Origin: Hyphomicrobiales bacterium
GTDB lineage: Bacteria > Pseudomonadota > Alphaproteobacteria > Rhizobiales > CAJQND01
Reading direction: 5' to 3'
Length of the DNA: 64,000 bases
Assembly (NCBI GenBank): GCA_028285595.1
Contig: JANQOW010000113.1
Coordinates: 1 to 64,000 of the forward strand
Under the pieces are notes generated by a model. It did not search any database, was not told where the DNA came from, and saw only the letters and a list, made by a program, of their open reading frames with translations. The translations under genes and the position numbers were made by a program. Positions 3,015 to 11,614 of the stretch are shown here, in pieces. The stretch's first letter is position 1. Each line of letters begins with the position of its first letter.

Positions 3015-3082
3015 AGGGCAGTTTTAGAGTTTTGACGCGCGCCACAGCGGGGAAGCAGCGGCGCGCGGAGGGGAGATATCAA

Positions 3083-5713
3083 ATGGCCAGAGAAGTACAG
3101 AGCGCTGAAGAGCTCGTCGCCCAGGTGGATACCGGCGGGCGCGATCCGGTGGGCTGGCAACACAAGCTTATCCTGATAATCGCGTTTGTTTGGGCCTGCT
3201 ATCAGCTGTACATTGCTTCAAACCTGCCGTTCTTTCTCACGGACCTGACCGGCATCAGTCTCATACTGCCCTCCAGTGAGGCCCGCAGGATCCATCTGGC
3301 GTTTGCGATTTTCCTCGCAGCCATGGTGTTCCCCCTCTTCAAGTCGTCGCCCAAGAACACCATCCCTTGGTATGACTGGGCCTTGGCGTTCACCGGCATT
3401 GGGGTGTGCCTGTGGGCGATCATCGATAAGACGGCGATTGCCGGACGGGCCGGCCTGCCCACCACCACCGATATGGTGGTTTCGGCTGTTGGTCTGTTCG
3501 TTCTGGGCGTCTCTATCTACCGCTCGCTTGGCTTGCCATTGGTGATCATTTCTTCGATCTTCATGGCTTATGTGTTCTTCGGCCATGCGGCCTGGCTGCC
3601 CGACGTGATCCAGTGGAAGGGGGCCTCATTCGGCAAGGCCACCTGGCATTACTGGATGCAGGATGAAGGGGTGTTCGGGGTCGCCCTCAAGGTCTCCACC
3701 GAGCTGATCTTCCTGTTCGTCCTGTTCGGCGCCATTCTGGAGAAGGCGGGTGCCGGCAACTATTTCATCAAGATCGCTTTTGCCCTGCTTGGCCATCTGC
3801 GTGGCGGCCCGGCCAAGGCGGCGGTTGTGGCTTCGGCCATGAGCGGGCTCTATTCGGGCTCCTCGATCGCCAACACGGTGACCACGGGCACGTTCACCAT
3901 TCCGCTGATGAAGCGCACCGGCTTCTCGCCGGAAAAGGCGGGCGCGGTTGAGGTGGCCTCGTCCACCAACGGCCAGCTCACACCGCCGGTGATGGGGGCC
4001 GCTGCGTTCCTGATCGCCGAGTTCACCGGCATCGCCTATACCGACATTCTGAAACACGCCCTGGTGCCGGCGCTGGTGAGCTATATCGCGCTTGTCTACA
4101 TCGTGCACCTTGAGGCTATGAAGCTTGGCCTGCAGGGTCTTCCCAAGCCGCCATCAGAGCGCACGCTCGCCCAGAAAATGCTGGGCGTTCTGACCGGGGC
4201 CCTCGGCACGGCGCTGCTGCTGTGGATCGTCTATCAGATCCTGGCCGTGGTGAAGGCCGCTGCCCCTGATATGTCGTTCCTCACCGTGGCCGTACTGTCC
4301 GGCATCGCCTATCTGGTGCTCTTGTGGTTCGCCTCGCGTGTGCCCGATCTTGTTGTGGATGCGCCGGATGCCCCGATCACCGAGCTGCCCAAAGCCGGCG
4401 CTACGGCCATCACCGGGCTCTACTACATCCTGCCGATCGTCATTCTGATCTGGTGCATTCTGCCCACGCCTGAGCGCCTGTCGCCCTCGCTGGCCGCGTT
4501 CTGGGCGGTGGTGGCCATGACCATCGTGGCAATCACCCACCGGCCTCTGAAGGCGATTATGCGCGGCGAAAGCGACGTGGTGAACGGCTTCAAGCAAGGC
4601 GTCGCCGAGTGGGTCGAAGGCATGATTTCCGGCTCGCGAAACATGATCTCCATCGGCATCGCCACGGGCGCTGCCGGCATCATCATCGGATCAATCTCAC
4701 TGACCGGCGCACACCAGGTGATTGGCGAGTTCGTGGAATTCCTCTCCGGCGGCAGCCTGCTACTAATGCTGATCCTGGTGGCGGTGATGAGCCTGATCCT
4801 CGGCATGGGTCTGCCCACCACGGCAAACTACATCGTGGTGTCCTCGCTGATGGCTCCGGTGATCGTGGCGCTGGGCGCAAAGAGCGGACTGATCGTGCCG
4901 ATCATCGCGGTGCACCTGTTCGTGTTCTATTTCGGCATCTTGGCGGATGATACGCCGCCCGTGGGGCTTGCCGCCTTTGCGGCGGCGGCCATATCGGGCG
5001 GGGATCCTATCAAGACCGGTCTTCAGGGCTTTGCCTATGACATCCGCACCGCGCTGCTGCCGTTCCTCTTCATCTTCAACACCGAGCTGTTGTTGATAAA
5101 TGTGGGCTTCGGCAAGGCGATCTTCGTCTTTGTGGTGGCGACTATAGCGATGATGTTATTCGCCTCAGCCACCCAGAGCTGGTTCCTGACCCGCAATAAG
5201 ATCTGGGAATCTGTGGCGTTGCTTCTGGTGGCCTTCACGCTCTTCAGGCCCGGGTTCTGGCTCGACCGCGTGCACCCGCCGTATGAGATCATACCGCCCG
5301 CGCAGATCATGGAAGTGGTGGGCGAGGTCCCGCCGTCCGGCACCATGACGGTGGTGGTCAAGGGTCCGAACTTCGACACCGGCGAGACGGACAGCACCAC
5401 GCTGCTCATCCCGCTGGGCAAGCCGGCGGAAGCTGTGAAGCGACTGCAGGATGCAGGCCTTACGGTGAATGTGGAAGATGGCTTGGCCAAGATCGAAGAG
5501 CCCCTGCCGCAAACCCCGTTCTTTGAGAAGATCGGCAAGAGCTTCGACTATTACGCCGACGATCCGGTGGTGATCTCCGAGATCAAGAAGGAAGCCGAGC
5601 GTCTGCCCAAAGAGGTTTTCTACATCCCGGCACTCTTGCTACTCGGCTTGGTGGTGCTGATGCAGATGAGACGCCGCCGTCAGGAAGAGCCGGCGACGGC
5701 CGCGGCGGCTTAA
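3083..5713 (+). CDS. TRAP transporter permease, fused small and large subunits (TAXI type)
   Basis: Inner-membrane permease of 876 residues using an ion gradient to import the ligand bound by the upstream TAXI protein. The N-terminal part carries the four-helix small-subunit domain. The central part is the DctM-like large subunit with conserved segments such as GLYSGSSIANTVTTGTFTIP and ILGMGLPTTANYIVVSSLMA. A soluble C-terminal extension (about 710-850) resembles DUF3394 and ends in a last membrane helix (FYIPALLLLGLVVLMQM). The start at 3083 is chosen because GGAGGGGAGA lies 7-15 bp upstream; an upstream start at 3032 lacks one. Single-gene fusions are typical of TAXI-TRAP systems. Confidence 0.92.
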   Translation: MAREVQSAEELVAQVDTGGRDPVGWQHKLILIIAFVWACYQLYIASNLPFFLTDLTGISLILPSSEARRIHLAFAIFLAAMVFPLFKSSPKNTIPWYDWALAFTGIGVCLWAIIDKTAIAGRAGLPTTTDMVVSAVGLFVLGVSIYRSLGLPLVIISSIFMAYVFFGHAAWLPDVIQWKGASFGKATWHYWMQDEGVFGVALKVSTELIFLFVLFGAILEKAGAGNYFIKIAFALLGHLRGGPAKAAVVASAMSGLYSGSSIANTVTTGTFTIPLMKRTGFSPEKAGAVEVASSTNGQLTPPVMGAAAFLIAEFTGIAYTDILKHALVPALVSYIALVYIVHLEAMKLGLQGLPKPPSERTLAQKMLGVLTGALGTALLLWIVYQILAVVKAAAPDMSFLTVAVLSGIAYLVLLWFASRVPDLVVDAPDAPITELPKAGATAITGLYYILPIVILIWCILPTPERLSPSLAAFWAVVAMTIVAITHRPLKAIMRGESDVVNGFKQGVAEWVEGMISGSRNMISIGIATGAAGIIIGSISLTGAHQVIGEFVEFLSGGSLLLMLILVAVMSLILGMGLPTTANYIVVSSLMAPVIVALGAKSGLIVPIIAVHLFVFYFGILADDTPPVGLAAFAAAAISGGDPIKTGLQGFAYDIRTALLPFLFIFNTELLLINVGFGKAIFVFVVATIAMMLFASATQSWFLTRNKIWESVALLLVAFTLFRPGFWLDRVHPPYEIIPPAQIMEVVGEVPPSGTMTVVVKGPNFDTGETDSTTLLIPLGKPAEAVKRLQDAGLTVNVEDGLAKIEEPLPQTPFFEKIGKSFDYYADDPVVISEIKKEAERLPKEVFYIPALLLLGLVVLMQMRRRRQEEPATAAAA

Positions 5714-8446: not shown

Positions 8447-10672
8447 TCAGAGCGGGAAGTGGATGCCGGCCCGGAACGACCCGCCGAACAGGGCCAGGTC
8501 TTCGCTGTCCCCATCGCCGATCACGCCGCCGCTCCAGCCCTGGGCTTCGCCGGCGCCGCGCACATAGACGCGCCCGCCATCACCAAACTTCCAAAGCGTC
8601 GCCTCTGCCCCCACCTGCACCTCTGTGGTGGTGAAGAACAGCTCTGTCACGGGCGCTCCATTGTCCAATCCCTTGGAGGCGAACTGCATGGACGCGCGGC
8701 CCTTTCCGAAGATGGAGATATAGTCGTTGAACATGTGGGTCAGCTCAAGCCCAACTACCAAACCGTTGCTGTTGCGCATCTGATCAGGGGTGCCGTTGCT
8801 GAACTCCCGGTAATCGGCATAGCGGTAGCCGCCGCTGGCGACGGCCGTCACGCTGCCCAGATTTATCTTCTTGGTCAGCTCCACATCCAGTGTCTCAACA
8901 TCCAAGCTGGCAATGACGGCGCCGGCGCCCAGATTGTTGCGTTCAGCCTGGTCCCACTGGAACCATCGGACCCGCGCGCCCAAACCATCCGCGCTCTCAA
9001 GGCCGGCCACCACTCTGGCTGCAGGTTCAAACTCAAATCCCGGCGTTTCGCCCTCTGAGTGAAAGGGTCTCACCACCACCGCCTCGCCTTCGATGAAGGC
9101 GCGAACTTCGCTCTCCTCATCCGCCGCTAAGAGGCCGGCGCTTGCAGCAGCTTCGCTCTCGCCTTGCGCCAACGGCACATGGAAGCCGGCCAACACGGTG
9201 CCGCCAAAGAGCCCGAGATCTTCCTGGTCGCCATCGCCTATCGTTCCACCGCTCCAGCTCTGGGCTTCCGCCGCGCCGCGCACGAACACACGTCCGCCAC
9301 CGTCAAAACGCCAGAGGGTTGCCTCTGCGCCAAGCTGGAGCTCAGCCGTTGTGAAGAACAAGTTGGACCTGGGCGTGCCGGTCTCAGTGCCCTTGGACGC
9401 ATATTGCAGGGAGTATCGGCCCTTGCCGAAGAGCAGGATGTCGTCGGTGAAACGGTGAGCCAGCTCAAGCCCCACGACCAGGCCGTTGCTGTTGCGCATG
9501 TCATCTGCATCAAAGAACCCGAACTCCCTGTAATCTGCATACCGGTAGCCGGCACTCGCCACGCCGGAGAGATTTCCGCGTGCGAAGGATTGGGTCAGCT
9601 CCACATCGATGGTTTCCAACGAGATCCGCTCGATAAAGGGCGGCTGAGCCACATTGTTGGGATTGAACGCGGACCAGTCGAACCAGCGGAACCGGATGCC
9701 CAGCCCATCATCGTTCACAAGACCGGCAATTACGCGCGGCGCAGCTTCGGCGTCAAAGCCCGGCGCTTCGCCTTCAGATTGATAGGGTCGCAGAATCACC
9801 GCTTCGCCGGCGATGAAAGCGCCGGCGCCACCTTGGGATGATGGCCCGGAGGAGGTGTTGTGCCCGGCTGTGGTCAGTCCGCGGGCGACACCTTGTGCCC
9901 CCAAGGGCACATCCACGCCGGCCTGGACGGTTCCGCCGAACAGCCCCACATCTTCGCTGTCCCCGTCGCCGATCACTCCGCCCGACCAGGCCTGGGCCTC
10001 AACGGCGCCGCGCAGGAACACCCGCCCGCCATTGTCAAACATCCAAAGGTTGGCTTCGGCCCCAAGCTGAAACTCCGCGGTGGTGAAAAACTGGTGGGTC
10101 ACCGGTGTGCCATTGTCGAGCCCGCGCCGGGCCGCCTGCAATGAGCCGCGGGCTTTGCCGAACACGGCAAAGTAGTCTGTCAGCATGTGGGACAGTTCAA
10201 GGCTGAGGGTCAGACCATGACCGTGGCGCATTTGGTCTGCATCGGTGAGGCCAAACTCCCGATAATCCGCATAACGGTAACCGGCGCTCGCGGTGGCCGC
10301 CACATTGGCAAAGTGGAACCGCTTGGTCACTTCAGCATCGAATGTCTCCACATTGATGCGTTCGATGAAGGCACCGGCATTGCCGGCGTTTGAGCCGTTC
10401 CACTCAAACCAGCGAAAACGCACGCCCAGCCCGTCCTTGCCGTTAAGGCCGCCCACGACCCGCACGCCGGCTTCGGTGCCAAACCCAGGGGTTTCACCCT
10501 CTGCCTGGAAGGGTTTGAGAAAGACCGCCTCTCCGCTCAGATAAACGCCCCAATCGCTGGCCCCGGCCGGCGCAAAGGCATTGTCTTTGGCCGCCAGGGC
10601 GGGCGAACAGACGCACAAACACGCGAACACGGATGCACGCAGCCGCAGAACTCTACGCAACGTCCTGACCAT
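8447..10672 (-). CDS. Secreted three-repeat protein, probable outer-membrane beta-barrel
   Basis: Protein of 741 residues with a signal peptide (VFACLCVCSPALAAKD). The rest is three tandem copies of one ~215-residue domain joined by short Gly/Ser/Glu-rich linkers: residues 43-257, 285-501 and 525-741. Each copy starts with (S/A/E)GEAVxxxPFxxEGExPGF, contains GYRYADYREF in the middle and ends with WSGGxIGDGDxEDxxLFGG and a PL terminus. Alternating polar and aromatic strands and the terminal leucine suit an outer-membrane or surface barrel, but no known family is recognised. GGGGAAGGTGA precedes the ATG. The gene is divergent from a cyclic-nucleotide-binding membrane protein. Function unknown. 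Confidence 0.8.
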   Translation of the reverse strand: MVRTLRRVLRLRASVFACLCVCSPALAAKDNAFAPAGASDWGVYLSGEAVFLKPFQAEGETPGFGTEAGVRVVGGLNGKDGLGVRFRWFEWNGSNAGNAGAFIERINVETFDAEVTKRFHFANVAATASAGYRYADYREFGLTDADQMRHGHGLTLSLELSHMLTDYFAVFGKARGSLQAARRGLDNGTPVTHQFFTTAEFQLGAEANLWMFDNGGRVFLRGAVEAQAWSGGVIGDGDSEDVGLFGGTVQAGVDVPLGAQGVARGLTTAGHNTSSGPSSQGGAGAFIAGEAVILRPYQSEGEAPGFDAEAAPRVIAGLVNDDGLGIRFRWFDWSAFNPNNVAQPPFIERISLETIDVELTQSFARGNLSGVASAGYRYADYREFGFFDADDMRNSNGLVVGLELAHRFTDDILLFGKGRYSLQYASKGTETGTPRSNLFFTTAELQLGAEATLWRFDGGGRVFVRGAAEAQSWSGGTIGDGDQEDLGLFGGTVLAGFHVPLAQGESEAAASAGLLAADEESEVRAFIEGEAVVVRPFHSEGETPGFEFEPAARVVAGLESADGLGARVRWFQWDQAERNNLGAGAVIASLDVETLDVELTKKINLGSVTAVASGGYRYADYREFSNGTPDQMRNSNGLVVGLELTHMFNDYISIFGKGRASMQFASKGLDNGAPVTELFFTTTEVQVGAEATLWKFGDGGRVYVRGAGEAQGWSGGVIGDGDSEDLALFGGSFRAGIHFPL
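8450..10546 (-). repeat. Threefold internal domain repeat (240-codon period)
   Basis: The coding sequence holds three homologous blocks on the minus strand at 9902-10546, 9170-9820 and 8450-9100. Start-to-start spacing is 242 codons between the first and second blocks and exactly 240 between the second and third. At the protein level the blocks share most of the GEAV, FRWFxW, GYRYADYREF, FFTTxExQxGAEA and WSGGxIGDGD segments. Copies 2 and 3 look closer to each other (both have MRNSNGLVVGLEL) than to copy 1. Confidence 0.85.
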
Positions 10673-10885
10673 TCACCTTCCCCGTTGACGGGCCGTTACA
10701 CACACACCGCCGCACGCTTGGAGTGCGCTTTCTTTTCGTAAGGACGGATTTCGCCGATCAGACTAGCGCGGCGAAGGAGCCCTGTACACTCAAGAAAAAT
10801 CACCCCAATTGTGGCATATGGCACATTAGATCTCTAACAACCTTGCTAGTGTCCGCGCGGTCACTGAATGCAGGTCGTATTGCCC

Positions 10886-11614
10886 ATGATGGATATACTT
10901 TTGAGCGCGGATGTTCTTAACATCGTGGGGATTGCGGGTGTTGCCCTCTATCTTGGATCTTATGCGGCTCTGCAGCTTGGGTTCCTGGGCGGGCAGGGCT
11001 TTCTCTATCCTACGCTGAACTTGATGGCGGCGGCTTGCGTCCTGGCCAGCCTTTTTCACGCCTTCAATTTATCATCAGCCATTATCCAGGTTGCCTGGAT
11101 CACCATCAGTCTGGTTGGTATCACCCGCATGGCCTTCGTCAATTTGCGGCTCCGGTTCACCGACGATGAACGAACTTTTGTTGAAGATATGCTCAAAGGT
11201 TTGCCGCTGGCCCAGGCCCGTTCGCTTTTGGACACCGGTTTTTGGGTGGGAGCAGAACGAGGCAGCGTGCTCACGGTTCAGGGCAAACCTGTGGACCACC
11301 TGTGCTACATGGCCAGTGGCAAAGCTGAGGTGCTGGTAGATGGTAAACTGGTTGCTCAATGCGGGACCGGCGCCATGATTGGCGAGGTTACCTACTTAAC
11401 CGGTGAGCCGGCCTCGGCCACCGTCCGCACCGCGGAAACTATGCGGTGCCTGCGCTTCCAGGCCGCCCACTTGCGCGAGTTTCTTTCAAAAAACCCCGAG
11501 ATCCGAGCTGTCTTGGAGCAGAACATGGCAAACCACCTGCGCACAAAGCTTGTAGACGCCTCCACACAGGTGTCTACGGCCGGTTCCGCCGTGGCGGAGG
11601 TGAAGGCGGCTTAA
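10886..11614 (+). CDS. Membrane protein with C-terminal cyclic-nucleotide-binding domain
   Basis: About 242 residues. Three hydrophobic segments in the first 85 residues (such as VLNIVGIAGVALYLGSYAAL) resemble the CBU_0592-like small membrane domain. They are followed by a cNMP-binding fold (about 110-215) with VDHLCYMASGKAEVLVDGK and GAMIGEVTYLTGEPASATV, the beta-barrel and phosphate-binding cassette of the CRP family. There is no helix-turn-helix, so it is not a transcription factor. The Arg typical of the cAMP cassette is absent (EPASATV), so its ligand is uncertain. The start is ambiguous: ATGs lie at 10868, 10886 and 10889, and 10886 is chosen for an AGG about 11 bp upstream. A class III adenylate cyclase lies 14 kb away. 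Confidence 0.8.
   Translation: MMDILLSADVLNIVGIAGVALYLGSYAALQLGFLGGQGFLYPTLNLMAAACVLASLFHAFNLSSAIIQVAWITISLVGITRMAFVNLRLRFTDDERTFVEDMLKGLPLAQARSLLDTGFWVGAERGSVLTVQGKPVDHLCYMASGKAEVLVDGKLVAQCGTGAMIGEVTYLTGEPASATVRTAETMRCLRFQAAHLREFLSKNPEIRAVLEQNMANHLRTKLVDASTQVSTAGSAVAEVKAA

Follow-up and report, generated by a model that had tools for sequence, protein, structure and literature searches.

A secreted alphaproteobacterial protein with three tandem putative barrel domains related to Legionella MOMP, a candidate single-chain porin trimer

The window analyzed here, the whole 64,000-nucleotide stretch of a Hyphomicrobiales contig, contains a gene for a secreted protein in which one domain is repeated three times in tandem (Table 1). 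The product is probably a single-chain three-barrel porin of the outer membrane, which would permit general or weakly selective diffusion through three MOMP-like ten-strand barrels packed in a trimer-like manner. Among the readings offered in the earlier note, that of three fused small barrels appears to be the best in light of the predicted fold, and a pseudo-threefold association of these barrels is plausible.

Table 1. Features of the triple-repeat gene and its product in the window.
Feature	Position	Strand	Remarks
Whole gene	8447-10672	-	From the ORF list; 741 aa, secreted triple-repeat protein
Putative signal peptide, residues 1-27, MVRTLRRVLRLRASVFACLCVCSPALA	10592-10672	-	By inspection
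Barrel copy 1, residues 42-257	9902-10549	-	
Linker 1, 26 residues, G/S/T-rich	9824-9901	-	Differs between the two species in the alignment
Barrel copy 2, residues 284-501	9170-9823	-	Ten predicted β-strands in residues 280-505
Linker 2, 22 residues, A/E/S-rich	9104-9169	-	Differs between the two species in the alignment
Barrel copy 3, residues 524-741	8450-9103	-	Runs to the protein C-terminus

By inspection, MVRTLRRVLRLRASVFACLCVCSPALA is composed of a basic n-region, a hydrophobic core, and an AxA-like end, the features of a Sec export signal. The mature protein of approximately 75.7 kDa has a predicted pI of 4.7 and contains no cysteine. Its three copies, which start 242 and 240 residues apart, exhibit pairwise identities of 62, 58, and 61% at the protein level and 65-67% at the DNA level. 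Alignment of the copy pairs gave scores of 679-709, versus a maximum of 66 in shuffled sequences (200 per pair), and the motifs GYRYADYREF and WSGG are identical in all three copies. The triplication in this protein is real. The earlier description of a secreted protein with a triplicated ~240-residue domain, a period of 240-242 residues, and short linkers was thus borne out, while the span given for it (8450-10546) misses only the putative signal peptide; the ORF is slightly larger because this peptide is included.

Among 101 genomes searched, only one other shares the gene, namely a congener (G001), the alphaproteobacterial MAG recorded as JAAEUE010000129.1. Beyond it, close homologues were found neither by peptide pattern in the genome contigs nor in plasmids or viral contigs. 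The congener gene also has three copies, and its product is 71% identical overall to the window protein. A tandem assembly artefact, which had been considered as a source of the repeats, is excluded by this independent genome with the same three-copy gene. The copies of the two species pair by position (ultrafast bootstrap 97-100), and a tree forcing the three window copies into one clade was rejected (AU p = 5e-7). Since the congener gene has three copies that pair in this way, the triplication is, judging from the tree, older than the split between the window species and the congener. An approximate dN/dS of 0.03-0.25 was obtained with dS saturated, which points to purifying selection on all of them; this ratio had been proposed as a means of dating the triplication, for which it gives no date because the synonymous sites are saturated. 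All three window copies stand on branches several times longer than those of their congener (L002) orthologues, as if the gene were evolving faster in the window lineage. In addition, the coding sequence for the congener signal peptide apparently lies upstream of the TTG start that was assigned mechanically (L003, ~3320-3446), where no obvious ATG, GTG, or TTG is in place to start it.

Copy 2 (residues 280-505) was modeled using a six-sequence alignment, which gave a ten-strand meander and almost nothing else (pLDDT 76, pTM 0.72). The confidence of this model is moderate, two of the five models having scored below 50. A Foldseek search with it placed the three chains of PDB entry 9nh1, a Legionella MOMP, on top (E = 7e-10 to 2e-9), followed by OpcA and the omptins; these best solved matches belong to the ten-strand type of membrane barrel. 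The same order was obtained with VIA-align, in which 9nh1 was the best match (Z 24.4, rmsd 2.6, 219 residues aligned), ahead of OpcA (Z 21.9) and the OmpT-type barrels of the omptins (Z 15-17). At its moderate confidence, the model hence has the same fold as the solved MOMP. OpcA and the omptins share only the barrel fold with the modeled copy at an identity of 9-15%, without a Pfam or NCBIfam match. The predicted strands alternate variable apolar positions with conserved E/R/K/Q, of which the latter would point inward when the strand facing is set by hydrophobicity rather than by coordinates, and the gaps between the strands are mostly short. The suggestion that a single copy would already be a small barrel is thereby supported for one repeat, predicted as a ten-strand membrane barrel, while AlphaFold modeling of the full-length protein with a two-sequence alignment reached a pLDDT of only 25. 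For this reason we infer the three-barrel arrangement, given three homologous copies that are each of barrel length and of which one was modeled as a barrel.

No known family had been recognized for the domain in the earlier note. No match to PF05150 (Legionella_OMP) was indeed obtained for the window protein or its single copies at the Pfam gathering cut-off (25.4 bits), a score with which the 14.8 bits of the congener protein are to be compared, and the direct Pfam and NCBIfam matches comprised only sub-threshold noise, such as dCache_1_like. A profile of the six window and congener copies, however, identified a 931-residue protein in a genome of the same order and another family (G171, L006), which contains three tandem PF05150 domains (1.7e-78). 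The window-copy profile matches this protein in register across all three copies, with hhalign probabilities of 82-94% over 133-190 columns versus no more than about 4% for reversed controls. A weak match in G461 (L028) was rejected as a different outer-membrane protein; it reached a probability of 86% over just 62 columns, so that alignment length is more telling than probability here. With a wider profile, a single-copy PF05150 protein (2.4e-17) was found in G1047 (L039), which answers the search for one-copy homologues and is placed as the sister of the window copies in the tree (support 88/79; long branches). When window, congener, and G171 copies were combined, the nine-copy profile gave a single match in the whole PDB, again the Legionella MOMP (E = 2.6e-8). 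Because the relatives in G171 and G1047 bridge the distance by homology along the domain, the window copies can be regarded as divergent relatives of PF05150 that lie beyond its curated threshold, and the absence of a known family is not supported.

The sequence in 9nh1 is named Major outer membrane protein and is present as three chains in the entry, whose title refers to porin I of the Legionella Dot/Icm machine seen in situ; its reading as a native trimer is based on this chain count and not on the coordinates. Legionella MOMP, or PF05150, corresponds to TCDB 1.B.57, which is given as a pore-forming family (PMC4827864). The window copies resemble this protein in predicted fold and in profile similarity through their relatives. 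They differ in an identity of ~15%, in their length (~218 residues versus a 288-residue MOMP chain), and in occurring three to a chain below the Pfam cut-off. In the porin proposed here, Sec would export the protein, and every copy would enter the outer membrane as a barrel of ten strands, giving three adjacent barrels connected by periplasmic linkers. Because ten is an even number, both termini of a barrel would be periplasmic, and the variable linkers of 22-26 residues could therefore join adjacent barrels. Three barrels on one chain would then be the covalent counterpart of the three-chain MOMP unit in 9nh1, with covalent fusion in place of subunit assembly. The PF05150 family suggests channel activity, and diffusion through the porin may be general or weakly selective.

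PF05150 genes sampled in the order are mostly single-copy, and tandem copies recur among them. The G171 protein carries exactly three tandem barrels behind a signal-like N-terminus, similar to the window protein and in register with it; its copies of ~305 residues are, in contrast, only 23-29% identical to those of the window protein and 68-77% identical to one another. Another, PF05150-like array, in G132 (L032 and L033), has at least three copies with a period of ~332 residues and is split across two contig ends. One end carries a first copy and the beginning of another, and the other end carries a nearly complete copy followed by the final one; the array falls outside the supported group in the tree. 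Two separate clades thus have exactly three copies, and a third has at least three. A single ancestral triplication common to the window and G171 proteins was discarded, as clades joining their copies by position were strongly rejected by the tree test. Since the single-copy G1047 protein sits between the two in the tree, separate triplications would be the simplest account; concerted evolution or gene conversion may also have acted in G171 and would give the same tree picture. A 661-residue ORF in G079 (L016) encodes a PF05150 barrel followed by ~300 different, beta-rich-looking residues, and is possibly a hetero two-barrel fusion.

The single-copy proteins of G1047, G018, and G252 have a helix-prone stretch ahead of the barrel. 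Its heptad periodicity was equaled in 1 of 1000 shuffles each for G1047 and G252, and was not clear for G018 (92 of 1000). Such N-terminal segments trimerize porins. No N-terminal heptad coiled coil was detected in the window protein, which differs in this from its one-barrel sister in G1047, or in the G171 protein. The coil in these single-copy relatives suggests trimerization, and is not a rule, because other single-copy PF05150 members also lack it by eye. It is conceivable, and we propose it tentatively, that a trimeric porin family was repeatedly made single-chain by in-frame triplication in one alphaproteobacterial order, and that the coiled coil holding the subunits together was lost; covalent fusion would then have replaced oligomerization in outer-membrane barrels in a natural and recurrent way.

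The many conserved inward charges could also indicate that the barrel is plugged and lacks a real pore, like OmpT or OpcA. The protein would then be three non-conducting barrels on a string, an adhesin or receptor like OpcA in which additional copies serve to increase avidity or surface density and do not copy a trimer. The adhesin OpcA ranks second among the structural matches, the inward E/R/K/Q could fill the lumen, and the G079 protein, with its long unrelated C-terminal region behind the barrel, implies that fusions are not tied to the number three. We nevertheless regard such a surface protein as unlikely, since Legionella MOMP ranks first by fold and is the sole PDB sequence matched by the profile, the short gaps between most predicted strands differ from the long surface loops of adhesins, and the exact copy number of three recurs.

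The same recurrence bears on a neutral tandem duplication, in which the number three has no functional meaning. PF05150 tandem arrays appear repeatedly in the order, where duplication may just be a common event; this account is improbable, however, because both species keep all three copies at a low approximate dN/dS (dS saturated) and exactly three copies are present in two clades. That the repeats instead form one very large barrel of ~30 strands is barely credible. They are contiguous on one chain and the full-length model is poor, but one copy by itself is modeled as a complete domain that matches whole barrels end to end, single-copy homologues exist, and variable linkers part the copies. 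The single-chain porin trimer is therefore retained as the preferred reading.

In the normal case, the BAM machinery assembles a porin out of three separate chains. Three periplasmically linked barrels raise the question of how BAM inserts them, and the usual C-terminal signal occurs only once, at the true end of the window protein, which presents a folding puzzle for this machinery. If the fusion mimics a trimer, its copies could specialize, an option closed to separate subunits of identical sequence, and the recurrence of the fusion would allow the reasons for favoring trimers to be tested through evolution. Outer-membrane pore proteins fused in twos or threes are described as rare, and the cases given are alphaproteobacterial (PMC4827864). 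They include MnoP and the three-domain TCDB 1.B.4.1.1, which similarly have two or three full barrels per chain; these proteins combine different families (PMC4827864), while the window protein repeats one domain of one family three times. Multi-barrel outer-membrane proteins were surveyed by Solan et al. (2021, PNAS), as cited in PMC8592465. Nothing relevant was retrieved when the literature was searched for naturally occurring single-chain porin trimers. Fused outer-membrane barrels are hence already known, and the window protein looks like a new, recurrent variant of them.

The gene stands alone in the window. Four bases separate it from a convergent glycerate kinase gene, and it is divergent from a gene (10868-11614) for a membrane protein in which a CBU_0592-family membrane domain is joined to a cyclic-nucleotide-binding domain. 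The neighbors of the congener gene differ from these. An operon-based assignment of function was consequently dropped, as the gene is alone, its surroundings change in the congener, and no partner hints at a substrate. Farther away, at 3032-5713, the window encodes a large TRAP-transporter permease of the DctM type with a C-terminal DUF3394 domain.
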